A stretch of 64,000 nucleotides of DNA from contig NZ_JARUBH010000009.1 of the NCBI RefSeq assembly GCF_029626105.1, forward strand, positions 4,774,001 to 4,838,000, written 5' to 3'. Below are positions 25,510-53,275 of the stretch, in pieces. The notes under the pieces were generated by a model that did not search any database, was not told the origin of the DNA, and saw only the letters and a list, made by a program, of their open reading frames with translations. A program made the translations under genes and the position numbers. Position 1 is the stretch's first letter. Each line of letters begins with the position of its first letter. This DNA comes from Solwaraspora sp. WMMD792 (GTDB taxonomy: Bacteria; Actinomycetota; Actinomycetes; Mycobacteriales; Micromonosporaceae).

Positions 25510-26667
25510 GTGACTCTCAAATCAGTGCTCGACACCACGCTTCGGGATGGCGAACAGGCACCAGGCAATGAGATGACCATCGAAGACAAGACGCGTCTCC
25601 TCGAGCTGATCGACGCCGCCGGCCCAGACTACATCGAGGTGGGATTTCCAGCCTCGTCGCCTGCGACCTTCGAATTCGTGCGCGAGATTTCGCGCAAATC
25701 GCGCAATGCAGCACTCACTGTGTTCGCTCGTGCGACACCTAAGGACATCGACACCGCACTCGACGCCGTCCGGGACGCCGATCGCTTCCAGCTCCAGCTG
25801 CTCATCACCGGGTCAGAAATCCACGCCGAGCATAAGCGCGGACAGACCTGGGAGCAAGCCCGGACAGAATTGGTAGAGGCATGTAACTACAGCCTGAAGG
25901 CAGGAGTGCGCGACCTTTCCATCGGGTTGGAGGATTCACTTCGGGCGTCGCCCGAGTACCTGCGTCCCATGATGCAGGCCGGACTGGATTCCGGCGCGAA
26001 CCTGTTTGTCCTGGCCGACACCGTGGGATCCTGTGTGCCACAGGAAGTCGAGGCCAAGGTACGCGCGGCCCTGCACTGGGTCAACGGGGCGGCCGATGTG
26101 ACGCTGCACTGCCACAACGACCTGGGACTGAGTCTCGCGAACGCCGTGGCCGGCATGCAGGCCGGTGCCGCCGGTGTGCAGGGCACGCTGGCCGGTATCG
26201 GCGAACGAACCGGCAACACTCCGCTGGAGGAACTTGCCGTCCTCACCCATTACCGCGGTGAGTCGCTAGGATTCCGAACGGCACTTAACCCCCGCAAGTG
26301 CGTCGAGGCGGCCAATGCCGTCCTCGAAGCAATCGGTGAACGACCCTGGAAGCACAAGCCGCTGCTCGGCGACCTGGCCTTCTCGACGGCTGCCGGCATA
26401 CACGCCGCAGGGATGATGAACAATCCGATCTGCTATGAGTTTGTCGAGCCCGAACTGGTCGGTAGGGAACGTCGCATTCTCCTGGGCGGGGCCTCCGGTC
26501 GTGCCAACATCCGGCATTTCGCGGCGACCCTCGGTATGTCGATCCCAGAAGACGTGCTCGATCAGATGTACCAGCGATTTGTGTTGGACCCCAGCCCGGC
26601 CCGGTACAACTCGCTGGAGGCTTTTGAGGGACTCTACCGGGACGCGCTGGATGGGACCGCGCAGTGA
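25510..26667 (+). CDS. Alkylmalate synthase (LeuA/homocitrate synthase family), catalytic core only
   Basis: 385 residues from GTG 25510 with GAGGGG upstream; the frame is open 22 codons earlier without a site. HMG-CoA-lyase-like barrel: DTTLRDGEQAPG near residue 8 and LHCHNDLGLSLANA near residue 197 give the family signatures and metal ligands. It is the length of NifV/homocitrate-type enzymes and lacks the C-terminal allosteric domain of housekeeping LeuA, so leucine feedback is unlikely. The known reaction is condensation of acetyl-CoA with a 2-oxo acid to a 2-alkylmalate. GTGA overlap with the next gene and linked LeuC- and LeuD-like genes suggest it starts synthesis of the alkyl-dicarboxylate warhead. 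The oxo-acid substrate is unknown. Confidence 0.9.
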   Translation: MTLKSVLDTTLRDGEQAPGNEMTIEDKTRLLELIDAAGPDYIEVGFPASSPATFEFVREISRKSRNAALTVFARATPKDIDTALDAVRDADRFQLQLLITGSEIHAEHKRGQTWEQARTELVEACNYSLKAGVRDLSIGLEDSLRASPEYLRPMMQAGLDSGANLFVLADTVGSCVPQEVEAKVRAALHWVNGAADVTLHCHNDLGLSLANAVAGMQAGAAGVQGTLAGIGERTGNTPLEELAVLTHYRGESLGFRTALNPRKCVEAANAVLEAIGERPWKHKPLLGDLAFSTAAGIHAAGMMNNPICYEFVEPELVGRERRILLGGASGRANIRHFAATLGMSIPEDVLDQMYQRFVLDPSPARYNSLEAFEGLYRDALDGTAQ

Positions 26668-27644
26668 TCGATGACACGGCCGACTTAACGATCGGCCTGC
26701 ACCTGCCGTTATTCGACTTCGGATTTGGCCATCCGACGCTCACGGGACAGGATCTGCACAACCTGCTGGAGGTCGCCGAGCGGCTGAATATTCAGGAGGT
26801 GGCGGCAAGCGACCACGTCGCCTTCCCCGTTCCCTGGCTGGACGGTCTAGCGGCACTCGCGTTCGTGGCCGCCCGCCTTCCGGGTCGGCGGCTGGTGACG
26901 GCAGCATGTCTCCCGACAGTCCGCGGTCCGGCGGTAACCGCCAAGGCATTGGCTGGGATCAGCCGTTTGGCGGGGGCCCCGGTGCGGGCCGGGGTGGCAG
27001 CGGGCTCCTCGCTGCGAGACCTCGATCTCGCAGGCGTGCCCGCAAGTGAGCGCTGGGCACGTTTCGATGACGCGTTAGGACTCCTGAGAGCGAGCCTGTG
27101 CGGTGATGAACCTACGGCCTATCACGGAAAACACTATCGGCTGGATGACCCGCTGACACCCGGCCCGGTGCCCGGAACGAAACTGTGGATTGCATCGTGG
27201 GGTTCCCCGGCCGGTGTCCGGCGCGCGGCGGAGCGTGGCGACGGACTTCTCTTCTCGGCGTACATGGCCGACTCGGATGCGATGGGTCGTGCGGTGCGGC
27301 TGGCCCGGCAGCTTCGAGCGGAACTTACCGACCCCGCACCGAACACCGACTTCGAATTTGCCGCATCGACGTGCTTCGTGCACGTCACCGAGGACGCTCC
27401 CGTCGCTGAGCTGTTGACGGGTACCATCCTCGCGGATTTCCTCAAGGTGTCGCCCGACGACCTGCGCCGACGCACACTGGTGGGCTCGCCCGCGCACTGC
27501 GCTGAGCGGCTCGCAGCGTTCGCTCGGGCCGGCGTGCAGCGACTGTACGTGCTCCCGGTCGGTGATCCGGATGAGCAGCTCACCCGCCTTCAGGAATCGG
27601 TCTTCCCGCTGGCTGCCGCGTACGGCTCGAAGGTGCGATGGTGA
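26664..27644 (+). CDS. LLM-class flavin/F420 oxidoreductase in the warhead operon
   Basis: 326 residues from a GTG overlapping the previous stop. Luciferase-like monooxygenase fold: GLHLPLFDFG at the N-terminus, ASDHVAFPVP near residue 48, IASWGSPAGVRRAAERGDGL near residue 175, and VGSPAHCAERLAAFARAG at the end. Members use F420 or FMN for reductions or oxygenations. In this operon it could reduce the alkylmaleate intermediate made by the LeuC/D-like pair to an alkylsuccinate, or hydroxylate the chain. Both roles are inference. It is distinct from the LLM protein at 17.6-18.5 kb. Confidence 0.85.
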   Translation: MIDDTADLTIGLHLPLFDFGFGHPTLTGQDLHNLLEVAERLNIQEVAASDHVAFPVPWLDGLAALAFVAARLPGRRLVTAACLPTVRGPAVTAKALAGISRLAGAPVRAGVAAGSSLRDLDLAGVPASERWARFDDALGLLRASLCGDEPTAYHGKHYRLDDPLTPGPVPGTKLWIASWGSPAGVRRAAERGDGLLFSAYMADSDAMGRAVRLARQLRAELTDPAPNTDFEFAASTCFVHVTEDAPVAELLTGTILADFLKVSPDDLRRRTLVGSPAHCAERLAAFARAGVQRLYVLPVGDPDEQLTRLQESVFPLAAAYGSKVRW

Positions 27645-28792
27645 GCGGCACGTCGTGCGGAGCCCTGGCGGGACTTTTTGTTCTTGACCTGTCCGCAATC
27701 CTCGCCGGCCCCACCGTGGGCCGCATCTTCGCCGATCTGGGCGCCCGGGTGGTGAAGGTCGAGCGGCCCGGGCCTGGCGATCCGGTGCGATCCATGGGTC
27801 GGTCCGTCGGTGGCGGCGAAGGGGCCTGGTGGGCTTTTGTCGGGCGGAACAAGGAGACGGTCAGCCTGGATCTCGAAGATTCGGCCGAACGCGCGCACCT
27901 CATGCGGATGGTCTGCCGCGCCGACGTACTGGTCGAGAGCTTCCGGCCGGGGACGATGGCGCGGTGGGGCCTGGATTACGAAGCCCTCGCCGCGGTCAAT
28001 CCCCGCCTGGTAGTCCTGCGCATCTCCGGCTTCGGTGCGGGCGGTCCGCGCGAGAATTGGTTGGGATTCGGCACGCTGGCAGAGGCGTTCAGCGGTTTCG
28101 CCGCGTTGAACGGCGACGCCGACGGGCCGCGCCTGCCGCCCACGGGGCTGGCCGACTCGATCGCCGGCCTGCAGGGCACCGTGGCGGTACTGGCGGCCCT
28201 GCACGAGCGGCAGCGCAGCGGGCGAGGACAGCTGGTCGAGGTCAACCTGTACGAGCCGCTACTCAGCGTCCTTGGTGGACATGTCGTGCGCGACGCCGCC
28301 CACGAGGAGGACCCGGGCGTGTCCGCCAGCAGCCATATCCGCGGGCTCTTCGCCACCGCGGACGGTGACTGGATCGCCTTGTCCGCCCACAGCGCCGCGA
28401 CCGGCAGCGCGATTGCCGGACTGCTGGGGGTGGCAGGCTCCGAGGGACTCGATCGCGGCGCAGTTCACGATCCGGATGACGTGCATCGCCGACTGGTGGC
28501 GTGGATCGGCGGAAAATCGCGAGACGACGCGCTCACACATCTGCTGGCGGCCGGCATTCCAGCGGTCCCCGTACTGACTCCCGGGCAGCTCAGCCACGAT
28601 CCACACGTCATCGCACGCGAGTCTTTACCAGCCGTCACACAGGGAAATGATGCCGTACGCATGCCCGGCATCGCCATGGACTTCTCCCGCAGCGAGCACA
28701 CGATTCGTCATATCGGCAAACCGCAAGACGACGATCGGGAGCATGTCATGGCCGAGTTCGCCCCAGATCACAGTTCGGAGGTGCCGGGATGA
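27638..28792 (+). CDS. CaiB/BaiF-type (class III) CoA-transferase
   Basis: 384 residues, start overlapping the previous stop by seven bases. Class III CoA-transferase family: LSAILAGPTVGRIFADLGARV at the N-terminus (split by a turn), KETVSLDL, ESFRPGTM, and the catalytic Asp in GLADSIAG near residue 173. It moves CoA between carboxylic acids. In this operon the likely acceptor is the alkyl dicarboxylic acid or its amide/hydroxamate, giving an acyl-CoA that a starter-type condensation domain could use. No adenylation domain in the cluster is otherwise free for the warhead, which supports this role by elimination. Confidence 0.88.
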   Translation: MVSGTSCGALAGLFVLDLSAILAGPTVGRIFADLGARVVKVERPGPGDPVRSMGRSVGGGEGAWWAFVGRNKETVSLDLEDSAERAHLMRMVCRADVLVESFRPGTMARWGLDYEALAAVNPRLVVLRISGFGAGGPRENWLGFGTLAEAFSGFAALNGDADGPRLPPTGLADSIAGLQGTVAVLAALHERQRSGRGQLVEVNLYEPLLSVLGGHVVRDAAHEEDPGVSASSHIRGLFATADGDWIALSAHSAATGSAIAGLLGVAGSEGLDRGAVHDPDDVHRRLVAWIGGKSRDDALTHLLAAGIPAVPVLTPGQLSHDPHVIARESLPAVTQGNDAVRMPGIAMDFSRSEHTIRHIGKPQDDDREHVMAEFAPDHSSEVPG

Positions 28793-30171
28793 CATCGACG
28801 ACGTATACGGACGCCCTCCTGGAATCGGCGGAACTTCACCGGGACGGATCGCGGATCCTCTTGGCGGTCGACCTCCACGTACTGCACGAAGTCTCCTCGC
28901 CCCAGGCATTCACCATGCTTGCCAACCGGGGACTGCAGGTGCGGGACCCGTCCCGTACGGTCGGCATCCCCGACCACGTCGTCTCCACCGCGCCCGGACG
29001 CATCGGCAGCGATGATCCGCGGGCCCAGCACATGCTCGACGTCTTCTCCGCGAACCTGGACACCGCAGGCATCGAGCAGGTGGCGCTGGACAGCAGTGAT
29101 CACGGCATCGTGCACGTGTCGGTCAGTGAGTCGGGCCGCGTGTTGCCAGGGCAGGTCGTCGTCTGTGGCGACAGCCATACCACCACCCTCGGCGCGCTGG
29201 GCGCGCTCGCCTGGGGAATCGGTACGTCAGAGGTGGCACACGTGCTGGCCACCCAGGCCGCCTGGACGTCGGTGCAACCGGTCGTCGGTCTGCGGGTGAC
29301 GGGCGTGCCAGGACCGGGCGCAGGAGCGAAGGACGTGGTACTGCGGGTGTGTGGCGAGCTGTCGCCGCGCTGGGGGGTTGGCCGACGGATCGAGTGGAGC
29401 GGGCCGTACATCGACGCGACCACGATGGCCGAGCGGTTCACCTTGTGCAACATGTCGGCCGAGTTGGGCGCCCGTTCGGCACTGATCCCGCCTGACGAGG
29501 TCACCTGGAGCTACCTGGCCGAACGGCTGTCGCCGCAACGCCTGGCTGCGGCGCGCCGCCGCAGTGCTGACCTCCTGCACCGTGCCGCGGAAGCGCCCCG
29601 CGAAGCTACTGTGGACATTGACAGCATCGCCCCGCAGGTGACCTGGGGCACGAACTTGTCACACGTGGCGGCCGTGGACGGACGAGTTCCGACCAGCGTT
29701 CAGGACAACCAGCGGTCTGCCTTCGAGGCGGCACTGGCGTACGCGAATCTCGTGCCGGGGCAGGAGCTACGGACGGTGCAGGTGCAGCATGCGTTCCTCG
29801 GATCCTGCACCAACGGCAGGATCGAGGATCTGCGGGCCGCCGCGATGGTCGTGGCCGGACACCGCGTGGCCCCAGGGGTACGGGCGGTGGTGGTGCCAGG
29901 TTCGCGGCGGGTCGCCGAGTTGGCAGAGCGCGAGGGCGTCCGGGCGGCACTGACCGACGCGGGCTTCCTGTGGCGTGAACCCGGCTGCTCCTCCTGCGTT
30001 GCCATCAACGGTGACACAGTTCCCCGCGGTGAGCGGTGCGTCTCCAGCTCCAACCGCAACTTCGAAGGCCGGCAGGGTGCGGGCGCGATCACCCACGTAG
30101 CCAGCCCCGCCACCGTGGCGGCCTCGGCCGTCACGGGACGACTGACGCATCCTGTCGAGGTGACCGGATGA
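28789..30171 (+). CDS. LeuC-like (homo)aconitase large subunit
   Basis: 460 residues, ATGA-overlapped with the CoA-transferase. Aconitase/isopropylmalate-isomerase large-subunit fold: VVCGDSHTTTLGALGA near residue 122, and all three [4Fe-4S] cysteines, C340 in GSCTNGR and C399/C402 in PGCSSCVA. SSSNRNFEGRQG near the C-terminus is the substrate-binding signature. With the LeuD-like half of the next protein it would dehydrate a 2-alkylmalate and rehydrate it to a 3-alkylmalate. It is divergent enough from housekeeping LeuC in its middle part to look specialised, but no key residue is missing. Confidence 0.9.
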   Translation: MTSTTYTDALLESAELHRDGSRILLAVDLHVLHEVSSPQAFTMLANRGLQVRDPSRTVGIPDHVVSTAPGRIGSDDPRAQHMLDVFSANLDTAGIEQVALDSSDHGIVHVSVSESGRVLPGQVVVCGDSHTTTLGALGALAWGIGTSEVAHVLATQAAWTSVQPVVGLRVTGVPGPGAGAKDVVLRVCGELSPRWGVGRRIEWSGPYIDATTMAERFTLCNMSAELGARSALIPPDEVTWSYLAERLSPQRLAAARRRSADLLHRAAEAPREATVDIDSIAPQVTWGTNLSHVAAVDGRVPTSVQDNQRSAFEAALAYANLVPGQELRTVQVQHAFLGSCTNGRIEDLRAAAMVVAGHRVAPGVRAVVVPGSRRVAELAEREGVRAALTDAGFLWREPGCSSCVAINGDTVPRGERCVSSSNRNFEGRQGAGAITHVASPATVAASAVTGRLTHPVEVTG

Positions 30172-31739
30172 ACAACCTCCAAGGGCGCGCTCTTCCGCTG
30201 GGACGCGACTCCGTCGACACCGACGTGATCGCGCCACAGTCCGAACTGCTCGTCGTGGACAACGCCGGCCTGGCCGATGCCGCATTCCTGACCTGGCGCC
30301 GGCATCCGGACGGCACGCTCACGGATTCTGTGCTCAACGACACGCGGTACCAGGGTGCCCGGATTCTGCTCACCGGCGACTCCTTCGGGTGCGGCTCAAG
30401 CCGGGAGCATGCGGTCTGGGCGTTGCAGGGACTCGGGTACGAGGCCGTGCTGGCGGTGGGGTTCGGCGAGATCTTCGAGCGGAACGCGGCGCGTAACGGC
30501 CTCGCCCCGATCGTCGTGTCGAGAGAGTCGCTCGACCAACTCCTCGACGTGGTACGGAGCAGGCCCGACGAAGTGCTCACCATCGACTTCGCCGAGGAGA
30601 CCGTGTCGGCGGCCGGGGTCCTCCACAAGGGCACGTTGTCCAAGGACGCACGCCGTTTCATCGTGGACGGCCACGATGAGATCTACGAAACCCTGGGCAT
30701 CCTGGCTGCTTCGACGGGCGGGCCGTCGGCGGCCGACGACGGCGAGCCACCAGCGCCGGCCGGCCGGGCGGGTGCCGGGACGGCGCTCGCTGGCGACTGG
30801 CAGGCAACACCGTCGAAGGGCCTGGCCTCGTGGCACGAGCGGGCCGGGGTCCGGTCGACCGAGCGGCGACTGCTTGGTGAGCTCGACCGAGGGTTGACGC
30901 TGTTTCCGCGCAAGCTCATGCCCTACCTTGATCACCCGCTGGTCACTGGGCTCGGCCCCGAGCAGCAGAGGGTGCTGATCGCTCGCCGCCTCTACGACTA
31001 CCTGTCCTTCGTGGTGCACCTCGAGGCAAAGGTCGTCAACCGGGGCACCCGCATCGTCGCCCTCGACGAGCTCGGGCTCGGCCTGCCATCGCATCTGCGC
31101 ACCGACGGCTGGAAAATCTACTGCGACGAGGCATACCACGCCCTGTCTGGCATGGACCTGCTCCAGCAGGTGGAGCGCGCGAGTGGTATCACTGCCTTGC
31201 CGTATGACTTCACGCCGGTCATGGAAACGTTACGGGACGCCGGCCGTGAGGTCGGTGCGGTCATGCCAGGGCTCGACCATCTGCTCGAGGTCATCGTCTT
31301 CGAGACCGTGGTCACCGAGCTGCTGAAGGATATTCCGAATGACGAAACAGTGGTCCCGGTTATCCGACAGGTCGTCGCCGACCACGCCGCGGACGAGCGC
31401 GTGCACCACGCCTTCTACACGGTCTTCTATACCGAATTATGGGGCAAGTTGGACCGTATGCAGCGCGAGCTTGTCGCACGCAGCCTGCCGAATATCGTCA
31501 CGGCCTGCCTGAGCCCGGACATCAGCGCTGTACGGCGCAGCTTGTCAGCCGCAGGACTGACCGACTCCGACGCGACGCAGGTCATTCAACAGACCTACCC
31601 GCAGGAGCGAGTTCGGGAGGACATCCGCCGGTCGGCCCGCAAGACCATTCGGATGTTCCAGGCACACGAGGTCTTCGATTTTCCAGGTGCCGCAGAGGCG
31701 TTCGAATCCGCCGGGCTGCTACTGCCCGACGACCGCTGA
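30168..31739 (+). CDS. Fusion: LeuD-like isomerase small subunit + AurF/CmlI-type diiron N-oxygenase
   Basis: 523 residues from ATG 30168, which overlaps the LeuC-like stop; an earlier in-frame start at 30036 lies inside that gene. Residues 1-185 are a LeuD/aconitase swivel domain (SVDTDVIAP, GDSFGCGSSREHAVWAL, GFGEIFERNAARNG). An Ala/Pro/Gly linker of about 35 residues follows. Residues 220-523 resemble the p-aminobenzoate N-oxygenase family: helices with a carboxylate/His pattern SFVVHLEAKVVNRG, CDEAYHAL and ADERVHHAFY supply a diiron-site set of Glu, Asp and His. AurF and CmlI oxidise arylamines. Here N-hydroxylation of a carboxamide or its precursor to a hydroxamate is inferred. I know of no described LeuD-AurF fusion. 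A 78-base gap with a weak CCACCC/GGGTGG hairpin separates it from the next gene. Confidence 0.85.
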   Translation: MNNLQGRALPLGRDSVDTDVIAPQSELLVVDNAGLADAAFLTWRRHPDGTLTDSVLNDTRYQGARILLTGDSFGCGSSREHAVWALQGLGYEAVLAVGFGEIFERNAARNGLAPIVVSRESLDQLLDVVRSRPDEVLTIDFAEETVSAAGVLHKGTLSKDARRFIVDGHDEIYETLGILAASTGGPSAADDGEPPAPAGRAGAGTALAGDWQATPSKGLASWHERAGVRSTERRLLGELDRGLTLFPRKLMPYLDHPLVTGLGPEQQRVLIARRLYDYLSFVVHLEAKVVNRGTRIVALDELGLGLPSHLRTDGWKIYCDEAYHALSGMDLLQQVERASGITALPYDFTPVMETLRDAGREVGAVMPGLDHLLEVIVFETVVTELLKDIPNDETVVPVIRQVVADHAADERVHHAFYTVFYTELWGKLDRMQRELVARSLPNIVTACLSPDISAVRRSLSAAGLTDSDATQVIQQTYPQERVREDIRRSARKTIRMFQAHEVFDFPGAAEAFESAGLLLPDDR

Positions 31740-31817: not shown

Positions 31818-33677
31818 ATGTGCGGCATCGCCGGAATGGTCGACTTCCGACAGCAGCGGCCCGATATCGAGGATGTTCTTGACCGGATGTGCTCCGCCCT
31901 GCATCGCCGCGGACCCGACGAACAGGGCAGCTGGGTCGGTTCCGGCGTCGGCATGGGTGTTCGCCGGCTGTCCGTCATCGACCTCGCCGGTGGTCGGCAG
32001 CCGATGGTGCACACGGCTGCCGACGGGAGCGCCGTCGCCCTGGCCTATACCGGCGAGGTCTTCAACTACGCCGCACTCAGGAACGAACTGACCGGGCACG
32101 GACACACGTTCGAAACCTCCAGCGACACCGAGGTTGTACTGCGTTCGTACCTGCAATGGGGAGCTGCCTGCGCTGAGCGGCTGGTGGGGATGTTCGCCTT
32201 TGCAGTATGGGACGGACGCACTGAGGAACTCGTCCTCATTCGGGATCGATTCGGGATCTACCCGCTCTATTACGCGGAGGTCGACGGCGGCGTTGTCTTC
32301 GGCTCGGAGCTCAAGGCGATCCTGGAGCACCCCGGAGTCGTGCCGGAAGTCGACATGGAGGGCTTCCGTGCGGTCATCACGTTCGTCAAGCGTCCCGAAA
32401 ACGGCATCTTCAGGGGCGTCCACGAGATGGTGCCGGGCACGGTGCGCCGAATCGGCCGGAGAGGCTCCCGGCAGAGCACGTACTGGACTCTGACTGCGCG
32501 GGAGCACACCGACGACCTCGACACCACGGTGGCGACGGTGCGCGAGCTACTCGAGCAGAGTGTGCGAAGCCAGCTCGTATCGGATGTGCCGCTGGGCGTG
32601 TTCCTTTCGGGCGGTCTGGACTCCAGCGCGATCGCCGCCTTGTCGGCGAAGGTCATGCGTGAAAAGGACGCCGGTTCGTTGCGGACGTTCTCGGTGGACT
32701 ACGCCGGTCACTCGGAGAACTTCACGCCCGACGAAGTCCGCGCCACTCCGGACCACCCGTTCGTGGCACGTATGGTGGAGCACCTGGGTGCCGACCACAC
32801 GCGCGTGGTGGTGGGGACGGATGAGTTGATGGACCCGGCCACCCGCTCCGAGGTGCTCATCGCACGGGACTACCCGACGTCCCTCGGTGACCTCGACACC
32901 TCACTGCTCTTGCTGTGCCGGGAATTCCGGCGTTCCTGCAAGGTGTCGTTGACCGGTGACGCGGCAGATGAGCTGTTCGGCGGGTACGCCTGGTTCCTGG
33001 ACCGGCACTACTACGACGCGGGAACGTTGCCGTGGCTGGAGTTCGCCCGCCGTATGGTCGGGCGTAACCAGCTGCGCAACACCGCGCTGTTGCGCGAGGA
33101 CCTGGTCAAGGACCTGGACAGTGAGACGTTCGAGCGGGATCTGTATTCCGACATGGTCGCCCAGGTACCTGTCCTCGCGGGAGAGAGCGAGCAGGACCGC
33201 GCCGCCAGGGTGATGACCCACCTCAACTTGACAGGCTATCTACGGATCATCCTTGACCGCAAGGATCGCGTCGGAATGGCGGCCGCGCTGGAGGGGCGCG
33301 TGCCGTTCCTCGACCATCGTCTGGTGGACTACGTTTTCAATGTCCCTTGGGCGATGAAGTCCTTCGACGGCCGGGAGAAGAGTCTGCTTCGTGCGGCGGT
33401 ACGTGACCTTCTGCCGCCGTCGGTGCTCTTCCGCCAGAAGGCCGGATACCCGCCTACCACCGATCCGCGGTACAACGACGTCCTGCGTCAGCGCGTATCC
33501 GAGATGCTCAGCGATAGCTCGGCACCCGTGCGCGAACTGCTCGATCTCGATGTCGTCCGGGCCTACCTCCAGGATCCGGACGGTCCGGCCGCAGCGGTCG
33601 TCAACCGTTTCAGCATGGAGATGGCCCTATACCTCAATGACTGGTTGGGGCGGTACCACATTCGACTCGCTTTCTGA
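31818..33677 (+). CDS. Asparagine-synthetase-type glutamine amidotransferase
   Basis: 619 residues from ATG 31818 (MCGIAGM), preceded by GGAGAG; Cys2 becomes the glutaminase nucleophile after Met removal. N-terminal Ntn glutaminase domain to about residue 205 (RRGPDEQG, LSVIDLAGG). C-terminal ATP pyrophosphatase domain with P-loop SGGLDSSAI near residue 267, then SLTGDAADELFGGY and DRKDRVGMAAALEGRVPF. The reaction type is ATP-dependent amidation of a carboxylate. In context it most likely turns the distal carboxylate of the alkyl dicarboxylic acid into an amide before N-oxidation. A housekeeping asparagine role is unlikely inside the cluster but not excluded. Confidence 0.92.
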   Translation: MCGIAGMVDFRQQRPDIEDVLDRMCSALHRRGPDEQGSWVGSGVGMGVRRLSVIDLAGGRQPMVHTAADGSAVALAYTGEVFNYAALRNELTGHGHTFETSSDTEVVLRSYLQWGAACAERLVGMFAFAVWDGRTEELVLIRDRFGIYPLYYAEVDGGVVFGSELKAILEHPGVVPEVDMEGFRAVITFVKRPENGIFRGVHEMVPGTVRRIGRRGSRQSTYWTLTAREHTDDLDTTVATVRELLEQSVRSQLVSDVPLGVFLSGGLDSSAIAALSAKVMREKDAGSLRTFSVDYAGHSENFTPDEVRATPDHPFVARMVEHLGADHTRVVVGTDELMDPATRSEVLIARDYPTSLGDLDTSLLLLCREFRRSCKVSLTGDAADELFGGYAWFLDRHYYDAGTLPWLEFARRMVGRNQLRNTALLREDLVKDLDSETFERDLYSDMVAQVPVLAGESEQDRAARVMTHLNLTGYLRIILDRKDRVGMAAALEGRVPFLDHRLVDYVFNVPWAMKSFDGREKSLLRAAVRDLLPPSVLFRQKAGYPPTTDPRYNDVLRQRVSEMLSDSSAPVRELLDLDVVRAYLQDPDGPAAAVVNRFSMEMALYLNDWLGRYHIRLAF

Positions 33678-35050: not shown

Positions 35051-35160
35051 TCGACGACCGACACACTCCGCCACCTGTCCGCTCCGGACTGCCACCGGGA
35101 GTTCGTCGAGATCGTGACCGCGATCCCGCGCCGCACCCGTCGAATCACTTGGAGACCCGA

Positions 35161-44286: not shown

Positions 44287-44498
44287 AGTCCACAGTCTAA
44301 CGATTCGGCCGTGAGCCGTGGGGTCGCGTGTGGGGTGGACGCCGATCCGCCCGGGCGGCGGATCGGCTTTCCCTGCCCTGCTCAGCAGGAGTTCCGTTTC
44401 CTCCCCGGCCTGAAGGCCGGAGTATCCACGGAAGGAATCCGATGACGACCGAATGGCGTGCCCCGGTGCGGCCGCGGGCCTGCTGCCGGGCCGGGGGG

Positions 44499-45210: not shown

Positions 45211-45248
45211 TTGACATCCACTTTGCAGAGAAGAATACTTTGCAAAGT
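45211..45248 (+). promoter_or_regulatory. Promoter with palindromic operator for the cluster regulator
   Basis: TTGACA (45211-45216), 17 bases, then AATACT (45234-45239). A perfect 12-bp palindrome ACTTTGCAAAGT (45237-45248) overlaps the -10, and a half-site ACTTTGCA (45220-45227) lies 17 bases upstream in the spacer. A repressor bound here would block the promoter. The predicted transcript start falls near the GTG at 45247, which suggests a leaderless mRNA. Confidence 0.75.
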
Positions 45249-45915
45249 GACGGATGGACAAGCCCACGACAAACCCGACCCATCCGATCGGGTGGCCGAC
45301 GACGACGGCCCTGGGGCGATGGCGAATCAGCTTCACGAGAGCTCGCCGACAGAAGGCGACGTCGCGGCCGGCGGATCCAACCCGGCTCACCCGATCCGCG
45401 ACGGCGTGGTGGTCACCGTGCTGCAGCACCCGGTCCGGGCCGCTCTCATGGAGCTGCTGCGCACCCGGGAGACGCTCACTGCCACGGAGGCCGCCCGGGA
45501 ACTGGGTGGCAACACGGGGACCTATTCGTTCCACCTGCGTCAACTGGCGCGGTACCGGCTGATCGAACCGGTGCCCACGACGCGGGGACGGATCCGGCCC
45601 TGGCGGCTGATCCGTCCGGGCGTGGCGCAGGTGGCCGACGAGCCGATGAGCTGCCTCGCCCGTGGGCTCGAGGACGAAAGCTACCGACGTTGGCTGGCGC
45701 TACGCGAGCAGGCACCGCCGCGCTGGCGCAACGACCAGGCATTCAGCGAGGTCATCTACCTCACGCCGAAGGAACTCACCGCTCTCGGCGCGAAGATCCG
45801 CGATCTCCTGGCCGAGTATCGCCACCGCGAGACCCGGCCCGAGACCCGTCCACAGGGGTCCGCGCCGGTCGCGGCGATCGCCCGCCTGTTCCCACTGCTC
45901 GACCCGGATCACTGA
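45247..45915 (+). CDS. ArsR-like winged-helix transcriptional regulator
   Basis: 222 residues if the leaderless GTG at 45247 is used; ATG 45319 is the alternative and gives 198. After a disordered acidic leader, the winged helix runs about residues 50-120: VVTVLQHPVRAALMELL, TATEAARELGGNTGTYSFHLRQL in helix order, then a basic wing GRIRPWRL. No ArsR metal site (CxC) is visible. The C-terminal third is helical and unassigned. It probably binds the palindrome over its own promoter and may sense the product or an intermediate. Divergent from def and upstream of the exporter gene. Confidence 0.85.
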   Translation: MTDGQAHDKPDPSDRVADDDGPGAMANQLHESSPTEGDVAAGGSNPAHPIRDGVVVTVLQHPVRAALMELLRTRETLTATEAARELGGNTGTYSFHLRQLARYRLIEPVPTTRGRIRPWRLIRPGVAQVADEPMSCLARGLEDESYRRWLALREQAPPRWRNDQAFSEVIYLTPKELTALGAKIRDLLAEYRHRETRPETRPQGSAPVAAIARLFPLLDPDH

Positions 45916-46012: not shown

Positions 46013-47581
46013 ATGACTGCCTCCGCGCCTGGGCGGCCTAAACACGGCCTGCTATCCACCATCGCCGTCTTCGCCGCCGCCTTCCTGGCGATGCTGGACC
46101 TGTCGATCAGCGCCGTCGCGATGCCGGCCATCCGCGAGGACCTGAACGCGTCGCTCGCCGGGCTGCAATGGATCTTCGACGCCTACGCGATCTCCTTCGC
46201 CAGCCTGCTGCTGGTCGGCGGGCTCATCAGCGACCGGCTCGGGCACCGTACCGGGCTGATCATCAGCCTCGGCCTGTTCGTCGCCGGATCGGCGTTGTGT
46301 GCCTTCGCCCCCAGCGTCGGCGCGCTGATCGCCGGCCGCGCGCTGCAGGGCGCGGCCGCGGCGATGCTGGTGCCGGGCAGCTTGGCGATGATCGCGCAGA
46401 TCTCCAGGGACGCGGCCCACCGGGCCCGCCTGGTGGGCATCTGGAGCGGCCTGACGGGCGCGGCGATCGCGCTCGGACCGGTCGTCGGTGGCTGGCTTGT
46501 GGAGACCCTTGGCTGGCGCAGCATCTTCGGAATCAACCTGCCGGTCGGGGTCGCCGTCATAGTGCTGCTCGTCACGGTGGTGCCGGCGGCGGCCCGCAAC
46601 CGGCAGGGCCGGATCGACGTGCCGGGCCTGGTGCTGGGCGCGCTGTGGTCGGCCGCCCTCGCCTACGCCGTGATCGAGGGGAACGTCCAGGGCTGGACCT
46701 CGCCGGTGATCGTGGGTGCCTTCGTGGTCGCGGCGGTGGCACTGGTCGCGTTCCTGGTCGTGGAGTTGCGGCAGACGCACCCGATGATGCCGGTACGGCT
46801 GCTCGGGCAACGCGCGTTCGCCGCAGCGAGCGTCATCTCGTTCGTCATGGGTTTCGCACTCTCCTCGTCGTTCTACTTCCTCTCACTTCTCCTGCAGGAG
46901 GTGCTCGGGTACGGCCCGCTCGGCGCCGGCCTCGGTTTCCTTCCCGCGGCCATCGCGCTCACCGTGATGGCGCCCCTCGCCGGGTGGCTGTTCGCCCGGC
47001 TCGGTGCCGCCCTGCTCGTCACCGGCGGGCTGCTGCTGGGCGCTGTCGGTCTGTTCGGCCTCACCCTCGGCGGCGTGGACACCCCCTACCTGCATCTTTC
47101 CTGGGCAGTGGCGCTGATCGGGGTCGGCTGGGGGCTGGCGCTGCCGCCCACCAACGCGGTGGCCCTGGGATCCGTGCCGCCACAGCAGGCCGGTGCCGCG
47201 TCCGGCACGGTGGAGACCGCGCTGCAGTTCGGCACGGTCGTCGGCATCGCTGTGCTCGGCACCGTGCAGGCGATCGGGCTGACCTCCGATCTGCGGGGCC
47301 GGCTCGCCGACGCTGGGCTCCCCGAGCAACTGAGCGGCGACGCCGCCGACCAGATCGCCGCCGGCCAGTCACCGGACCTGTCCAACTTCACCGGCGACCT
47401 GGAACGCGTCACCGCCGAGGCGTTCGCCCATGGGCTGCACCTGGCCTTCGTGATCGGCGCGGTCGTCGTCGGCCTGTCCGCCCTGGTCGCCCTGGTGGGT
47501 CTGCCCCGGCGCACCCGGCCCGCTCCCGACGGCGGCGAATCCTCGCCCGCGGAGCTTTCGACAGTTTCCACCACACCGTGA
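46013..47581 (+). CDS. MFS drug exporter, 14-TM DHA2 (EmrB/QacA) type
   Basis: 522 residues from ATG 46013 with AGAGGA upstream. DHA2-family features: helix 1 motif AMLDLSISAVAMPAI, motif A GGLISDRLGHRTG, motif C region GAAIALGPVVGGWL, and enough hydrophobic segments for 14 helices. Proton-driven export of the cluster product is the likely job. It sits between the regulator and the second NRPS operon. About 97 bases upstream separate it from the regulator stop. Confidence 0.9.
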   Translation: MTASAPGRPKHGLLSTIAVFAAAFLAMLDLSISAVAMPAIREDLNASLAGLQWIFDAYAISFASLLLVGGLISDRLGHRTGLIISLGLFVAGSALCAFAPSVGALIAGRALQGAAAAMLVPGSLAMIAQISRDAAHRARLVGIWSGLTGAAIALGPVVGGWLVETLGWRSIFGINLPVGVAVIVLLVTVVPAAARNRQGRIDVPGLVLGALWSAALAYAVIEGNVQGWTSPVIVGAFVVAAVALVAFLVVELRQTHPMMPVRLLGQRAFAAASVISFVMGFALSSSFYFLSLLLQEVLGYGPLGAGLGFLPAAIALTVMAPLAGWLFARLGAALLVTGGLLLGAVGLFGLTLGGVDTPYLHLSWAVALIGVGWGLALPPTNAVALGSVPPQQAGAASGTVETALQFGTVVGIAVLGTVQAIGLTSDLRGRLADAGLPEQLSGDAADQIAAGQSPDLSNFTGDLERVTAEAFAHGLHLAFVIGAVVVGLSALVALVGLPRRTRPAPDGGESSPAELSTVSTTP

Positions 47582-47620: not shown

Positions 47621-49576
47621 GTGAGCGATCACGACCCGCCGTCACCCTTGGCCCATCACCTCTTCGAGAAGCAGGCAGCCGCCGTCGCTGAGCGTCCGGC
47701 GATCCGCGACGGCGGCCGTACCCTGTCCTACGGCACGCTCAACGAGTACGGTGACCGGCTCGCGGCGCTGTTGCGGGCGTACGGCGCGAAGCCGGAGGCC
47801 CTGGTCGGCATCTGCCTGCCACGCGGTATCGACCAGGTGGTCGCGGCCGTCGCGGCGCTGAAGTCCGGCGCCGGCTATCTTCCGGTCGATCCACAGCAGC
47901 CGGCGCTGCGGATCCGTCAGACCCTCTCGATGGCCGGTCCGGTAGCGGTCGTCACCAGCAAGCACCACGCCGGTGACCTGGACTGCCCCGAGCTGGCGGG
48001 CGTCCCGATCGTCGAACTCGACGGCGGGGTCGGCACCGACGAGCTGACGCCGACGCCGGTGCCGGCCGTCGACGCCGGCCCGGAGAACCTCGCGTACGTC
48101 GTCTTCACCTCCGGCTCCACCGGCACCCCTAAAGGCGTGCAGATCGAACACGGCTCGCTCGCGAGTTTCATCCGATGCGACATCGAAGAGTTCGAACTTA
48201 CCGCGTCCGACACGGTGGCGCTGGTGGCGTCACCCGGCTTCGACGCCTCGGTGTGGGACATCTGGCCCACCCTGGCGGTCGGTGCCTGCCTGCAGACCGT
48301 GGAACCGGCGACCGTGCTGTCGCCGGAGACGTTGCGTGACTTCATCGTGGACACCGGCATCACCGTCGGATTCTTCACCACGGCGATCGCAGAGCGACTG
48401 CTCCGGCTCTCCTGGCCGGCGTCGTGCCGGCTTCGGCTACTACTCACCGGTGGCGAACAGTTGCACGTCCGGCCCGCGCCCGGCCTGCCGTTCCGTCTGG
48501 TCAACAACTACGGTCCGACCGAGACCACGGTGATCGTCACCTCCGGTCCGGTCCGCCCGGCCGGAGAAGGCGTTCCCCGGTTACCGTCCATCGGCCGTCC
48601 GTTGCCGGACGCTCACGTGTACCTGCTCGCCGAGGGTCTGCGGCCGGTCGCCGAAGACGAGGCGGGTGAGATCTTCATCGGTGGTCCCGGCGTCGCACGT
48701 GGGTATCTGAACCGCCCCGACCTGACCGAGGAGCGGTTCCTGCCCGACCCCTTCGCGGACCTGTCCGGTGCTCGGATGTACCGGACCGGTGACCTCGCCC
48801 GCCGCCGCGCCGACGGCAGTCTCGACTTCCTCGGCCGAGCCGACGACCAGGTCAAGATCCGCGGGAACCGGGTGGAGCCCGGCGAGGTGGCAGCGGTCCT
48901 GCAGGAACATCCAGCGCTGGGATCCGCGCACGTGATCGCGCAGTCGGGGGACGCGGCCGGCGACGCGTTCCTGATCGCTTACGTGACGGCCGCCGACCCG
49001 GCCGATCCCCCGCGAACAAGAGAACTGCACCGGTACCTCGCCGAGCGGCTGCCGGCGGCCCTCGTACCCCGGCATTTCGTGGCGCTCGACTCGCTGCCGA
49101 TCACCGCGAACGGCAAGGTTGACCGGGCGGCCCTGCCGCCGGTCACCGCCACACGGACGGACCTGCCGAATCCGCAGGCGGCACCCAGTACCGCACTGCA
49201 GCGTCGGCTGGCGGAGATCTGGCGGGAAGTCCTCGGGGTCGCGGAGGTCGGCACCACGGACAGTTTCTTCGATCTGGGCGGGCACTCGCTGCAACTGGCC
49301 GACGTGCACCGCCGGATCACCCGCGAGCTGGCGCACGAGCTGCCCCTGATGGCCCTGTTCGAGCATCACACGATCCAGGCCCTCGCGGATCATCTCACCC
49401 GTTCCAGCGAGCAGCCGGCGGCGGCGAAACTGCGCGAGGAAACCCGGCGCGTCCGCAATTCCCCGCGCCAGAGAGCGCTGCGGCGTACGGCGGCGCAAGC
49501 GATGGAGACGCCGGCCCGGCCGTCCGCGCCGGTCGACGGGACCGGGGACGGAGACGGAGGCCGTGATGGACGCTGA
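47621..49576 (+). CDS. NRPS A-PCP didomain (A2), leucine-like pocket
   Basis: 651 residues from GTG 47621 with GGAGG upstream. A domain about 1-505: A3 FTSGSTGTPKG, NNYGPTETT, A10 ANGKVDRAAL near residue 494. PCP about 525-605 with phosphopantetheine Ser in LGGHSLQL near residue 556. By-eye pocket D-A-W-F-L-T-N-V-I-K is close to the known leucine code D-A-W-F-L-G-N-V-V-K, so leucine or another branched aliphatic amino acid is expected. The disordered, basic then Gly/Asp tail could be a docking region for the next protein, whose gene overlaps it by 11 bases. It lacks its own C domain; C2 probably serves it. Confidence 0.92.
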   Translation: MSDHDPPSPLAHHLFEKQAAAVAERPAIRDGGRTLSYGTLNEYGDRLAALLRAYGAKPEALVGICLPRGIDQVVAAVAALKSGAGYLPVDPQQPALRIRQTLSMAGPVAVVTSKHHAGDLDCPELAGVPIVELDGGVGTDELTPTPVPAVDAGPENLAYVVFTSGSTGTPKGVQIEHGSLASFIRCDIEEFELTASDTVALVASPGFDASVWDIWPTLAVGACLQTVEPATVLSPETLRDFIVDTGITVGFFTTAIAERLLRLSWPASCRLRLLLTGGEQLHVRPAPGLPFRLVNNYGPTETTVIVTSGPVRPAGEGVPRLPSIGRPLPDAHVYLLAEGLRPVAEDEAGEIFIGGPGVARGYLNRPDLTEERFLPDPFADLSGARMYRTGDLARRRADGSLDFLGRADDQVKIRGNRVEPGEVAAVLQEHPALGSAHVIAQSGDAAGDAFLIAYVTAADPADPPRTRELHRYLAERLPAALVPRHFVALDSLPITANGKVDRAALPPVTATRTDLPNPQAAPSTALQRRLAEIWREVLGVAEVGTTDSFFDLGGHSLQLADVHRRITRELAHELPLMALFEHHTIQALADHLTRSSEQPAAAKLREETRRVRNSPRQRALRRTAAQAMETPARPSAPVDGTGDGDGGRDGR

Positions 49577-52529
49577 CATCGATGCCCTGGTAGCTGTCGT
49601 CGGCTTGGCGGGACGCTTTCCCGGGGCGCCCGACGTCGACTGGTTCTGGCGCAACGTCTGCGACGGCGTCGAGTCGGTACAGATCCACACCGCGACAACG
49701 GCCGACGGGACCGGCGAGCACTACTCCGGGTACGGCGTGCTCGACGACGGCGAGATGTTCGACGCCGCGTTCTTCGGGTATCCGCCAGGGGAAGCCCTGG
49801 TCATCGATCCCCAGCAGCGGGTCTTCCTGGAATGCGCCTATCACGCCCTGGAAGACGCGGCCTGCGACCCGGCCACCTATGACGGGCTCATCGGCGTGTA
49901 CGCCGGCGGTAGCACCACCGGATACGCCGCAGCCCTGCATGCGGCCCGGAGCCGGCTGCCGTTCCTCGACGACTGGCAGATCCGCATCGCCACCGGCCCG
50001 GACTTCCTGGCCACCCGGACCGCTCACAAACTCGGCCTGCGCGGTCCCGCGATGACGGTGCAGACGGCCTGCTCGACCTCGCTGGTGGCCATCCACCTCG
50101 CGGCTCAGGCGCTCCTGGCGGGCGAGTGCGACATCGCGCTCGCTGGCGGCGCCACGGTGCACGTGCCCCGGCCGTCGAGCGGTTACACCGAGGGCGGCAT
50201 CCTGGCAGCCGACGGGCACTGCCGAGCCTTCGACGCCAAGGCCACGGGTGCCGTCGGCGGCAGCGCCGTGGGCCTGGTGGTGCTGCGCCCGCTCGGCGAC
50301 GCGCTTCGCGCCGGCAATCACATCCACGCGGTTCTGCGCGGCACCGCCGTCAACAACGACGGGGGTGGGAAGGTCGGCTTCACCGCGCCGAGCATCGACG
50401 GGCAAGCCCAGGTGATCCGCACCGCCCAGCTGGTCGCCGGGGTGAACGCGCGCGACGTCACCTACGTCGAGACGCACGGCACCGGGACGCCGCTGGGTGA
50501 TCCGATCGAGGTCGCCGCGCTGACCCGGGCGTTCCGGGCCGATACCGACGACAGTGGCTTCTGCCGTATCGGCTCCGTCAAGACCAACGTCGGGCACACC
50601 GACGCGGCGGCCGGCGTCACCAGCTTCATCAAGGCGGTCTTCGCCGTCGAGCACGGGCTCATCCCGCCCAGCCTGCACTTCGAGGAAGCCAATCCGGAGA
50701 TCGACTTCGCGACCAGCCCGTTCTCCGTCGCCACTGCCCTCGTTCCGTGGCAGCCTGACGGGCGTCCCCGACTGGCCGGAGTCAACGCCCTCGGCATCGG
50801 TGGCACCAACGCCCACGTCATCCTGGAGCAGCCGCCGGTTCCCGCACCTACGGCCGGCCGGACCGGCACACCGCAGCTCGTCGTCCTCTCCGCCCGCACT
50901 CCTGCGGCGCTGGACACCCTGAGCCGGACCCTCGCCGCACGGTTACGCGAGGACCCGGCGCTCGACCTGGCCGATGTGGCGAGGACGTTGCAGGTGGGCC
51001 GGCCCGCGCAGCCGTTCCGCCGGTTCGCGGTGTGCGACGGCGCTGCCGACGCCGCAGGAGTGTTCGCCGGCGAGGATCCCGAACGCCTGATCACCAACGA
51101 CGGAAGGCCAGCCGCCCGGCCCGTCGTGTTCATGTACCCCGGGCAGGGCGGCCAGCACGTCGGCATGACCCGGGAGCTCTACGAACGCGAACCCGTGTAC
51201 CGGGAGGCGATCGATGCCGCCTGCGACTACGCTGCGCCGCTTCTCGGCACTGACCTGCGCACGATCCTGTTCCCCGAGGCCGGTGACGTCGAGAAGGCCA
51301 CCGAGCAGATGGCGACGATTGGTGTCGGGCAGCCGGCGGTCTTCGTCGTCGAGTACGCCTTGACCCGGCTCTGGCAGTCCTGGGGTGTCACCCCCTCGGC
51401 GGTCGTCGGCCACAGCCTCGGGGCGTACGCGGCGGCGTGCGCGGCCGCGATCCTGCCGTTGGCCGAGGCGATCAGTCTGGTCGTCACCCGGGGCCGGCTG
51501 TTGCAGGGACTGCCGGCCGGCCGGATGGCCGCAGTGCCGCTCCACGAAGAGGAGCTGATGGCGCTGCTTCCGGACGACCTCTCCGTGGGATCGGTCAACG
51601 GACCCGGTCAGTGCACGGTCACCGGCCCCGCCGCCTCGGTAGAGGCATTCACCGCCGAGCTGCGTGACCGCGGCGTCGACGCGCGCCTCCTGCGGATCTC
51701 GACCGCAGGCCATTCCGCGCTGGTGGAGCCGATAATGGCCGAGTTCGAGGCTGCGGTCAGCGCCGTTAAACCACAACCGCCGCAGGTGCGTTTCCTTTCC
51801 GACACTCTCGGCCGATGGGCGACCGGTGACGAGGCCGCCGCTGCGGCGTACTGGTCGTCACACCTGCGCCGCCCGGTGCGCTTCGATGCCGCGCTGCAGC
51901 ATCTGCTCGACGATCCCAGCCAGATACTCGTCGAGGTCGGACCCGGCCGGGTGCTGAGCAGCCTCGCGCGTCAGCATCCGGCCGCCAACGGGGCCCACAC
52001 GATTCTCAGCTCGCTGCCGCACCCCGCCGACCGGACTGCCGACACCCATAGCCTGCTGCACGCCGCAGGCCGGCTCTGGGCAGCCGGGGTCACCCTGGAC
52101 TGGCCGAGCCTGCATCAGGATCGGACGCCTCGACTGGTCCGACTGCCGCTCTATCCGTTCGACCGCCGGCCGTACCTGGTGGAGCCGCCTGCCGCGGCCC
52201 AGCAGGCCGACGCGGGGCAGGTCATCGTCACCCCAGACGAGCCGGCTACCGAAACGTCTGCCGGCGACCCCCTGTCCGAGGAGAGCGTGGCCGGGCGAGT
52301 GAGCCAGGCAATCGGCGACGTCCTGGGCATCAACGACGTGGGCGAGCACGAGAGTTTCTTCGATCTGGGCGGAGATTCCCTGATCGCGACACGTCTGGCG
52401 GCCTGGACCAGGACGGCGTTCGGCGTGGAGTTCTCCGCCAAGGAGGTCCTGACGAACCCCACCGCCGCCCGGATCGCAGATTTGGTGGAGGAACGGATGA
52501 GCGCGATCGGAGAGGTGAGCTCTCGATGA
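49566..52529 (+). CDS. Type I PKS module KS-AT-ACP
   Basis: 987 residues from ATG 49566 (GGAGG five bases upstream; the GTG one codon earlier is too close). KS about 1-425 with nucleophile in QTACSTSL near residue 168 and His in ETHGTGTPLGD and NVGHTDAAAG. AT about 520-815 with GHSLGAY near residue 616; the specificity loop reads TAGHS, neither the HAFH malonyl nor the YASH methylmalonyl signature. ACP Ser in DLGGDSLIA near residue 937. No KR, DH, ER or methyltransferase, so one extension gives a beta-keto thioester on the aminoacyl chain. An enone product through the ACAD homologue would need a methylmalonyl unit; malonyl would give a methyl ketone. Confidence 0.93.
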   Translation: MDADIDALVAVVGLAGRFPGAPDVDWFWRNVCDGVESVQIHTATTADGTGEHYSGYGVLDDGEMFDAAFFGYPPGEALVIDPQQRVFLECAYHALEDAACDPATYDGLIGVYAGGSTTGYAAALHAARSRLPFLDDWQIRIATGPDFLATRTAHKLGLRGPAMTVQTACSTSLVAIHLAAQALLAGECDIALAGGATVHVPRPSSGYTEGGILAADGHCRAFDAKATGAVGGSAVGLVVLRPLGDALRAGNHIHAVLRGTAVNNDGGGKVGFTAPSIDGQAQVIRTAQLVAGVNARDVTYVETHGTGTPLGDPIEVAALTRAFRADTDDSGFCRIGSVKTNVGHTDAAAGVTSFIKAVFAVEHGLIPPSLHFEEANPEIDFATSPFSVATALVPWQPDGRPRLAGVNALGIGGTNAHVILEQPPVPAPTAGRTGTPQLVVLSARTPAALDTLSRTLAARLREDPALDLADVARTLQVGRPAQPFRRFAVCDGAADAAGVFAGEDPERLITNDGRPAARPVVFMYPGQGGQHVGMTRELYEREPVYREAIDAACDYAAPLLGTDLRTILFPEAGDVEKATEQMATIGVGQPAVFVVEYALTRLWQSWGVTPSAVVGHSLGAYAAACAAAILPLAEAISLVVTRGRLLQGLPAGRMAAVPLHEEELMALLPDDLSVGSVNGPGQCTVTGPAASVEAFTAELRDRGVDARLLRISTAGHSALVEPIMAEFEAAVSAVKPQPPQVRFLSDTLGRWATGDEAAAAAYWSSHLRRPVRFDAALQHLLDDPSQILVEVGPGRVLSSLARQHPAANGAHTILSSLPHPADRTADTHSLLHAAGRLWAAGVTLDWPSLHQDRTPRLVRLPLYPFDRRPYLVEPPAAAQQADAGQVIVTPDEPATETSAGDPLSEESVAGRVSQAIGDVLGINDVGEHESFFDLGGDSLIATRLAAWTRTAFGVEFSAKEVLTNPTAARIADLVEERMSAIGEVSSR

Positions 52530-53275
52530 CCGGCACGACATCACCGTGGGCGCTGCTCCGGGCCCGACGCCCGGATGCCCCGACACGCCTGTACTGCTTC
52601 CCACACAGCGGAGGATCGCCTGGCGAGTACATCCGCTGGGCACAGCGGTTGCCGAGCACGGAGGTTCTGGGCATCCAGTTGCCCGGCCGCGGTTCCCGGC
52701 TGACCGAGAAGCTCTTCACCGCCGTGCCCGACCTGGTCAGTGCGCTGGTCAGCGAATTCACCTTCGCTGAGCCCTTCGTGTTCTTCGGGCACAGCCTCGG
52801 CGCGCTGGTAGCGTTCGACACCGCCCGGGAGCTGCGGGCCCGTGGCCTTCCCGGCCCGCGCCGGCTGGTGCTGTCGGCGTGCACCCCGCCGCACCACGGC
52901 CTGCAACGTGCCCCACTGCACGTGCTGCCGGACGAGGAGTTCATCGACGCGTTGAGCGAGCAGTTCGGTGGGTTGCCCCCGGCTATCCGGTCCGAACCGG
53001 AGCTGCTCGGGCTGGTGCTGCCCGCGTACCGCGCCGATCTGGAAATGTTCGAGCGTTACGAGTATGTGCCGGGCGAGCCGTTGCCGTGCCCGATAACGGT
53101 GGTCGGCGGCGCCGACGACTACATCCCGTCTGCCCTGCTGGCCGATTGGCAGCAGTACACCACCGGCGGCTTCGACCTGTACACCCTTCCCGGCGGACAC
53201 TTCTACCTGCGGGATGAGCCGGCGCAGGAACAGTTGCTGCGGGTCTTGGCCCGTCACCTGGAAAAGGCGAGGTGA
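52526..53275 (+). CDS. Thioesterase (type II/external, alpha/beta hydrolase)
   Basis: 249 residues, ATGA-overlapped with the PKS gene. GrsT-type thioesterase: CFPHSGGSPGEY near residue 20, nucleophile FFGHSLGAL near residue 90, Asp in GGADDYIP near residue 196, and His in PGGHFYL near residue 225. It is the only thioesterase in the cluster and the PKS has no TE domain, so besides editing it may release the beta-keto acid. It is the last gene of the second NRPS-PKS operon. Confidence 0.92.
   Translation: MTGTTSPWALLRARRPDAPTRLYCFPHSGGSPGEYIRWAQRLPSTEVLGIQLPGRGSRLTEKLFTAVPDLVSALVSEFTFAEPFVFFGHSLGALVAFDTARELRARGLPGPRRLVLSACTPPHHGLQRAPLHVLPDEEFIDALSEQFGGLPPAIRSEPELLGLVLPAYRADLEMFERYEYVPGEPLPCPITVVGGADDYIPSALLADWQQYTTGGFDLYTLPGGHFYLRDEPAQEQLLRVLARHLEKAR

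Follow-up and report, generated by a model that had tools for sequence, protein, structure and literature searches.

How might a hydroxamate warhead be made by a gene cluster that has the assembly line of matlystatin but not the carboxylase and mutase genes of the matlystatin warhead? The question is raised by positions 25510-53275 of the stretch analysed here (the window), which comprises 64,000 nt of the 7.4 Mb genome of Solwaraspora sp. WMMD792 (10 contigs; estimated completeness 100, estimated contamination 1.2). For actinonin, matlystatin and lydiamycin, the published descriptions, as far as they go, give one carboxylase-mutase route to the alkylsuccinyl unit. The region is in all likelihood a matlystatin-type nonribosomal peptide synthetase/polyketide synthase (NRPS/PKS) cluster in which, to judge from its genes, this ethylmalonyl-CoA-type route has probably been replaced by a leucine-like cassette; a full mechanism leading to an alkylsuccinate warhead is favoured on balance, with rather less assurance. 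The matlystatin cluster (mat) of Actinomadura atramentaria was compared by sequence, and those of actinonin (act) and lydiamycin (lyd) by published description. Pfam scans took in 20 window proteins, and genome searches drew on samples of 300 family genomes and 394 class genomes (the own genome included), with few candidates scored in each, and on seven genomes of the genus, again including this one.

The assembly line in common with matlystatin

A preliminary description of the region had listed alkylmalate-type enzymes, an amidotransferase, an AurF-type oxygenase, a piperazate gene pair, NRPS parts, KS-AT-ACP, an acyl-CoA dehydrogenase (ACAD) homologue, an exporter and a peptide deformylase. 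Every one of these gene types is found by Pfam in 25510-53275, on the plus strand apart from the deformylase (minus strand). It had also proposed a gene-by-gene comparison with mat, which turned out favourably: when the 20 window proteins were compared by tblastn with the 40 kb mat region, 13 matched at E<=1e-5 with gene order conserved, namely 12 proteins and the N-oxygenase domain of a thirteenth, with best identities of 44-67%. The homologues of MatA, C, D, F, G, H, I, J, K, O and P thus stand in the same order in both clusters. After the MatA-like domain (54%), described below, come an AsnB-like amidotransferase of the asparagine synthase family (31818-33677; MatC-like, 65%), an ornithine N5-hydroxylase (33719-35050; KtzI/MatD-like, 52%), a piperazate synthase of the FMN_bind_2 family (35047-35829; KtzT/MatF-like, 53%), an ACAD decarboxylase-dehydrogenase (35826-37577; MatG-like, 57%), a free condensation (C) domain (37574-38920; MatH-like, 44%), a peptidyl carrier protein (PCP; 38920-39195; MatI-like, 67% over 60 aa), an adenylation (A) domain for piperazate (39192-40823; MatJ-like, 63%) and a protein with a C domain and the C-terminal subdomain of an A domain (40820-43060; MatK-like, 58% and 41%). 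Further along the same strand lie an MFS exporter (46013-47581), also common to both clusters (55%), an A-PCP protein (47621-49576; 55%), a ketosynthase-acyltransferase-acyl carrier protein (KS-AT-ACP; 49563-52529; 58%) and a thioesterase (52526-53275; MatP-like, 57%). MatO is a single protein, whereas the window has its N-terminal part (A-PCP) and its C-terminal part (KS-AT-ACP) separately.

The specificity signatures agree as well. The code of the piperazate A domain, DVQFNAHMVK, is identical in the window and mat at 10 of 10 positions, and that of the second A domain, for leucine or isoleucine, reads DAWFLGNVIK in the window vs DAWFLGNIIK in mat (9/10), the code positions in each case having been set by alignment to a GrsA fragment. 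The AT motif TAGHS occurs both in the window KS-AT-ACP and in MatO, which incorporates a propionate-derived unit according to the part of the literature that treats it (PMC5719088). A scaffold of the hydroxamate-piperazate-leucine/isoleucine-ketide type, as the preliminary description had it with a branched amino acid in third place, is therefore well supported by homology, since the mat proteins are matched one by one, the piperazate code is identical, the AT motif is the same and MatO uses a propionate unit. Motifs of the usual meaning are intact throughout: HHxxxDG in both C domains, the KS cysteine, the carrier serine, the thioesterase serine, the AsnB cysteine, the LeuC cysteines and the deformylase motifs. 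The AurF-type di-iron ligand pattern is invariant in all four aligned N-oxygenase sequences, the residues in question being presumably the metal ligands. The core frames are open, and there is a strong third-codon GC bias across the cluster.

Regulation appears in common too. Ahead of the exporter lies an ArsR-like helix-turn-helix (HTH_20) regulator (45319-45915, plus strand) with 53% identity to the mat regulator over 185 aligned positions, and both clusters contain a split TTTGCA operator, with half-sites 11 bases apart in the window and 10 in mat. The window copy, CTTTGCA-N11-TTTGCAAAG (45221-45247, no strand assigned), was located by a pattern that gave 0 matches in 100 shuffles and was written after the site had been seen. 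In the AsnB tree the window and mat sequences form a pair (support 99/99) that is joined next by S. cacaoi (91/92), and all of these fall inside a set (100/100) whose five other members come from genomes with a carboxylase-reductase gene near the cluster.

Likenesses to other systems are known by description. The act cluster of Streptomyces sp. ATCC 14903 is described as having the same AsnB and AurF-type N-oxygenase hydroxamate chemistry, but as NRPS only and with the carboxylase-mutase route, and the clusters of epoxyketones (epnF/epxF type) are described as having a member of the ACAD family beside a PKS module, which differs in having a methyltransferase domain, while hydroxamate genes are present in the window (PMC5719088). 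For lyd, piperazate genes and an in-cluster deformylase are described, together with a carboxylase and a mutase and without AsnB and N-oxygenase (PMC12130866). The proposal of an actinonin-matlystatin hybrid stands as far as the matlystatin assembly line goes; the word hybrid is imprecise, the differences being the route to the warhead carbon skeleton and the deformylase.

The carboxylase-mutase genes and the leucine-like cassette

In mat, production was lost on deletion of matB, matE, matL or matQ, and the labelling seen with octanoate speaks for a carboxylase-mutase route (PMC5719088). None of the corresponding families (carboxylase-reductase, mutase, epimerase) was found by Pfam among the window proteins scanned. 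A search of the own genome with the carboxylase-reductase MatL gave no match at E<=1e-20. As controls, the same query was run on the mat genome, where it recovered its own gene, and on four genomes with related clusters, all four of which have a relative. These related clusters are the distinct loci that combine NRPS parts and an N-oxygenase with an AsnB at 48% identity or more. In all five control genomes the match (best E<=1.2e-174) lies about 3-10 kb from the AsnB gene. With MatB as the query, the best mutases of the own genome reach 41-42% identity; for comparison, an identity of 70% is given for ActD and MatB (PMC5719088). An IS605-type TnpB gene (43075-44565, minus strand) separates the C-A protein from the deformylase in the window, at the position taken up by the carboxylase-reductase in mat. 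The AsnB tree nests the window inside the carboxylase-bearing set. The simplest history would have the carboxylase-mutase route ancestral and lost in the lineage of the window. Besides mat, four clusters with AsnB, N-oxygenase and NRPS genes have a carboxylase-reductase nearby (L019, L034/L088, L044/L090 and L047/L089); their hosts, which are a member of the family, S. cacaoi, Rhizocola hellebori and S. spiralis, are candidate producers of the actinonin class.

The operon opens instead with five plus-strand genes with overlapping ends. They encode a LeuA-like alkylmalate synthase (25510-26667; HMGL and HCS_D2 domains, 385 aa from a GTG start), a luciferase-like (LLM) oxidoreductase (26664-27644), whose start overlaps the LeuA stop, a class III, CaiB-like CoA-transferase (27638-28792), a LeuC-like dehydratase large subunit of the aconitase family (28789-30171; Pfam, NCBIfam and motifs) and a LeuD fused in frame to the AurF-type N-oxygenase (30168-31739). 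The last reads as one protein, because its reading frame continues without a stop across a linker rich in Pro and Ala; against the mat region only its N-oxygenase part (residues 216-519) matches, and the LeuD part is without a match. Likewise, at E<=1e-5 nothing in the 40 kb mat region matches LeuA, LLM, CaiB or LeuC, nor TnpB, the deformylase or a MOSC protein discussed below. The fusion, the TnpB, the HTH regulator and the lack of carboxylase, mutase and epimerase genes in the cluster are points that go beyond the preliminary description.

Assignments within the cassette differ in firmness. For the LeuA-like protein, NCBIfam ranks models of 2-isopropylmalate synthases first, each of them below its cut-off; for the CaiB-like protein the best model, succinyl-CoA:mesaconate CoA-transferase, is far below its cut-off, and its solved relatives include benzylsuccinate CoA-transferase subunits, though not as the nearest. 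A search of the 393 other class genomes at E<=1e-85 gave relatives of the LeuA in three of them; three more lie on Streptomyces plasmids, drawn from 14 plasmid records at E<=1e-50, and identities range over 44-47%. Among the six neighbourhoods, for which the plasmid gene tables are incomplete, three (L137, L142, L143) have LeuC, LeuD, an aminotransferase and LeuB beside NRPS genes, and a fourth (L135, near a contig end and with one frame unscanned) has LeuC, LeuD and an aminotransferase. The window cassette resembles the first three in its LeuA (44%), LeuC (43-44%) and LeuD, but it differs from them in being without LeuB and aminotransferase and in having the LLM protein and the CoA-transferase; neither LeuB (Iso_dh) nor an aminotransferase was found among the 20 window proteins, LeuB not having been searched genome-wide. 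Because three of its six nearest LeuA relatives sit with LeuC, LeuD, aminotransferase and LeuB in NRPS neighbourhoods, the cassette looks like an elongation cassette diverted from amino-acid extension, to which a reductase-like protein and a CoA-transferase were added. The NRPS-associated cassettes at L137, L142, L143 and L135, of which two are on Streptomyces plasmids, are also of note in their own right, as are L136 and L141. There the LeuA relatives (47%) have as neighbours an acyl-CoA dehydrogenase gene and a gene of the gamma-butyrolactone type (AfsA/ScbA), and in L141 a distant LLM protein is encoded 8 kb away.

No second LeuD-AurF fusion was present among the matches listed for the 300 family genomes; among the 394 class genomes, with few first-look candidates scored in each, only the own genome has one at E<=1e-74, and none of 181 plasmid records covers 80% of the query. 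An N-oxygenase scan, which missed the mat N-oxygenase itself, gave 42 loci reaching at most 10 kb to each side, and in these there was no match to the LeuD part, LeuA, LLM, CaiB or LeuC at E<=1e-5. The LLM enzyme had no match in plasmids at E<=1e-20; a second gene for a luciferase-like oxidoreductase (17616-18503, minus strand) lies in the window outside the cluster. Among the papers listed by searches of the open-licence PMC literature, none on a LeuA-type route to a hydroxamate was met.

The proposed warhead route and its rivals

The gene content suggests the following order of events, of which the first five steps and their sequence are inferred. The LeuA-like synthase would couple a 2-oxo acid with acetyl-CoA to give a 2-alkylmalate, which LeuC and the LeuD part of the fusion would dehydrate to an alkylmaleate; the LLM enzyme, as a putative alkylmaleate ene-reductase, would then reduce the C=C bond, perhaps with F420H2, to 2-alkylsuccinate, in place of the LeuB reaction. 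The CoA-transferase would activate the carboxyl adjoining the branch, and AsnB together with the N-oxygenase part of the fusion would convert the distal, former acetate carboxyl to the hydroxamate. By analogy with the characterised mat cluster, the MatHIJK/O/P-like line would add piperazate, leucine or isoleucine and one methylmalonyl unit, and the MatG-like ACAD would decarboxylate and dehydrogenate the product to a vinyl ketone to which nucleophiles add. Acetate would thus be the source of the hydroxamate carbonyl, and the 2-oxo acid that of the carbonyl linked to piperazate. Precedents for two of these steps have been published. In the biosynthesis of 4-alkylproline and of lexapeptide, C=C bonds are reduced by LLM enzymes that depend on F420 (PMC8498797). 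A mesaconate CoA-transferase acts on methylsuccinate with a higher kcat/Km than on mesaconate, forms only the C1 ester of mesaconate and showed no activity with citraconate or citramalate (PMC5592240), which argues for reduction before CoA transfer.

As a first guess, the side chain would be isobutyl, from 4-methyl-2-oxopentanoate. At one LeuA alignment position, which we take to bear on side-chain size in LeuA enzymes, the window has Gly, as do 6e1j and two relatives, whereas 3rmj has Ser, 3eeg has Phe and the homocitrate synthase 6ktq has Thr; since Phe occurs in one 2-isopropylmalate synthase, the Gly is a weak hint. The LeuD loop reads ELLVVDNAGLA in the window vs YLKRVTRTGFA in two copies from the same genus. 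Both features would allow a non-standard side chain, and neither specifies one. Calculated with matlystatin B as the template, an isobutyl analogue would have [M+H]+ 427.2915 as the hydroxamate and 411.2966 as the amide, with an acyl-Pip fragment of 268.1656 and an acyl fragment of 156.1019 in the amide series; the corresponding values for isopropyl are 413.2758, 397.2809, 254.1499 and 142.0863. The same calculation reproduces the fragments published for the pentyl amide (282.1812 and 170.1176, as against 282.18 and 170.12).

Several observations weigh against this route or its setting. It is read from the genes themselves, and a single cluster of this kind was found. All NCBIfam matches of the LLM protein fall below cut-off, the best being TIGR03619 (F420-dependent LLM) at 99 bits with a cut-off of 167, and its single-sequence fold prediction has a pLDDT (predicted local distance difference test) of 40. 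In L136 and L141 neither LeuC nor LeuD was seen, so this LeuA group is not bound to one role. The N-oxygenase tree supports the pairing of window and mat weakly (89/90). On the side of the carboxylase-mutase genes, MatL and MatB, and not MatE or MatQ, were the queries of the genome-wide searches, and a VOC/glyoxalase protein encoded at 24260-24757 shares 31% identity with MatE over 130 aa; as a MatE counterpart it was rejected at that identity and length, and tblastn against the mat region gave nothing for it at E<=1e-5.

The most serious rival is that LeuA, LeuC and LeuD run the normal isomerisation to a 3-alkylmalate whose hydroxyl is kept, giving an alpha-hydroxy hydroxamate (3-alkyl-2-hydroxysuccinyl) on a matlystatin backbone, while the LLM protein does something else. 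A complete LeuCD ordinarily yields 3-alkylmalate, so an unreduced, hydroxylated warhead is conceivable, and the cluster has both LeuC and LeuD, each with its motifs; the synthetic drug marimastat carries a warhead of the alpha-hydroxy hydroxamate pattern. By mass the two readings would not be told apart, a plain hydroxamate and an alpha-hydroxy amide being isomeric. This outcome is nonetheless thought unlikely: the LLM gene sits inside the cassette, overlapping its LeuA gene, and needs a role, and no hydroxyl of this kind figures in the descriptions of the characterised relatives (PMC5719088; PMC12130866). It is very unlikely that the region is a decayed, non-producing remnant left by insertion of TnpB and gene losses. 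TnpB does lie between the C-A protein and the deformylase, but the element is intergenic, the core frames are open with intact motifs and the third-codon GC bias remains strong. Slightly less weight still is given to the idea that LeuA, LeuC and LeuD extend a branched amino acid, for example to homoleucine, for the peptide, with the warhead coming from another source. The nearest LeuA relatives are indeed often in NRPS clusters with elongation cassettes, but this reading is disfavoured, as LeuB and an aminotransferase are not among the cluster proteins scanned, the A-domain codes agree with matlystatin, the cluster shows no alternative source of a warhead, and the LLM protein and the CoA-transferase would be left unexplained. 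Least probable is an ethylmalonyl-CoA-type route supplied in trans, for although other mutases of the family occur in the genome, supply from elsewhere is disfavoured by the MatL search, which was null here at E<=1e-20 and positive in five of five control genomes, one of them the query's own source. The diverted leucine-like cassette, with reduction by the LLM enzyme, is accordingly kept as the preferred reading.

Possible self-protection, cluster borders and significance

The peptide deformylase (44499-45047, minus strand) has its likely start at an ATG at 45047, after GGAGAGG, and reads divergently from the operator held in common with mat, in whose 40 kb region a deformylase match is lacking. 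It is one of five peptide deformylase matches in the genome (the others being L002-L005), with 71% identity to the nearest. Since the deformylase of the lydiamycin cluster is reported to give immunity (PMC12130866), the window copy is likely, by analogy, to be a resistant copy of the target and a gene of self-immunity; its motifs are canonical, so that the sequence as such does not show resistance.

Directly behind the thioesterase, a protein with MOSC_N and MOSC domains is encoded (53335-54192, plus strand), which may be an accessory gene; no ferredoxin domain was found in it by Pfam, nor any NCBIfam match. The gene is native to the genus: three relatives have it at 85-88% identity, two more have partial copies and the sixth has a distant one. 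At the site where the relatives have it, about 222 bp of its 5' end (L138, 10023-10244) persist at 92% identity between conserved neighbouring genes, and the DNA common to the old and new sites is little more than the gene itself; from these comparisons the gene is seen to have been moved or copied to its place between the thioesterase and a tRNA gene. The enzyme mARC reduces hydroxamate drugs to inactive amides (PMC10637980), and by analogy the MOSC protein could reduce the hydroxamate to an inactive amide as an off-switch or for self-protection, a tentative and rather doubtful suggestion. What ties the gene to the cluster is its position and nothing else. Incomplete copies occur in two genomes (G060, G093) without act/mat-like AsnB, so the gene is not essential.

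The tRNA-Ala (CGC) gene, at 54207-54283 on the minus strand, lies directly at the right edge of the cluster and is the only RNA family found in a search of the window; beside it, and also to the left of the cluster, no convincing repeats marking an integrated element were found. G+C is 0.65-0.67 over 24-36 kb vs 0.70-0.73 over 36-60 kb, and third-codon values are 0.73-0.82 for the genes from LeuA through piperazate synthase vs 0.85-0.90 for those from ACAD through thioesterase (the inserted minus-strand genes excluded). This step fits a patchwork origin of the cluster; it falls after the piperazate genes and not at the border of the leucine-like cassette.

Taken together, the genes suggest a second natural way to make the same hydroxamate-type group. 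In published mining for further clusters, the mutase was used as the probe (PMC12130866), and therefore a cluster with the same assembly line but an unrelated warhead route would be missed. If the proposed route is true, it would be a non-homologous replacement of the pathway for a drug pharmacophore, in which the side chain would be set by the choice of 2-oxo acid and hence easily varied, and it would be a candidate for the way in which branched warheads are made, among them the isobutyl one of BE16627B, a compound named in the literature on matlystatin (PMC5719088).

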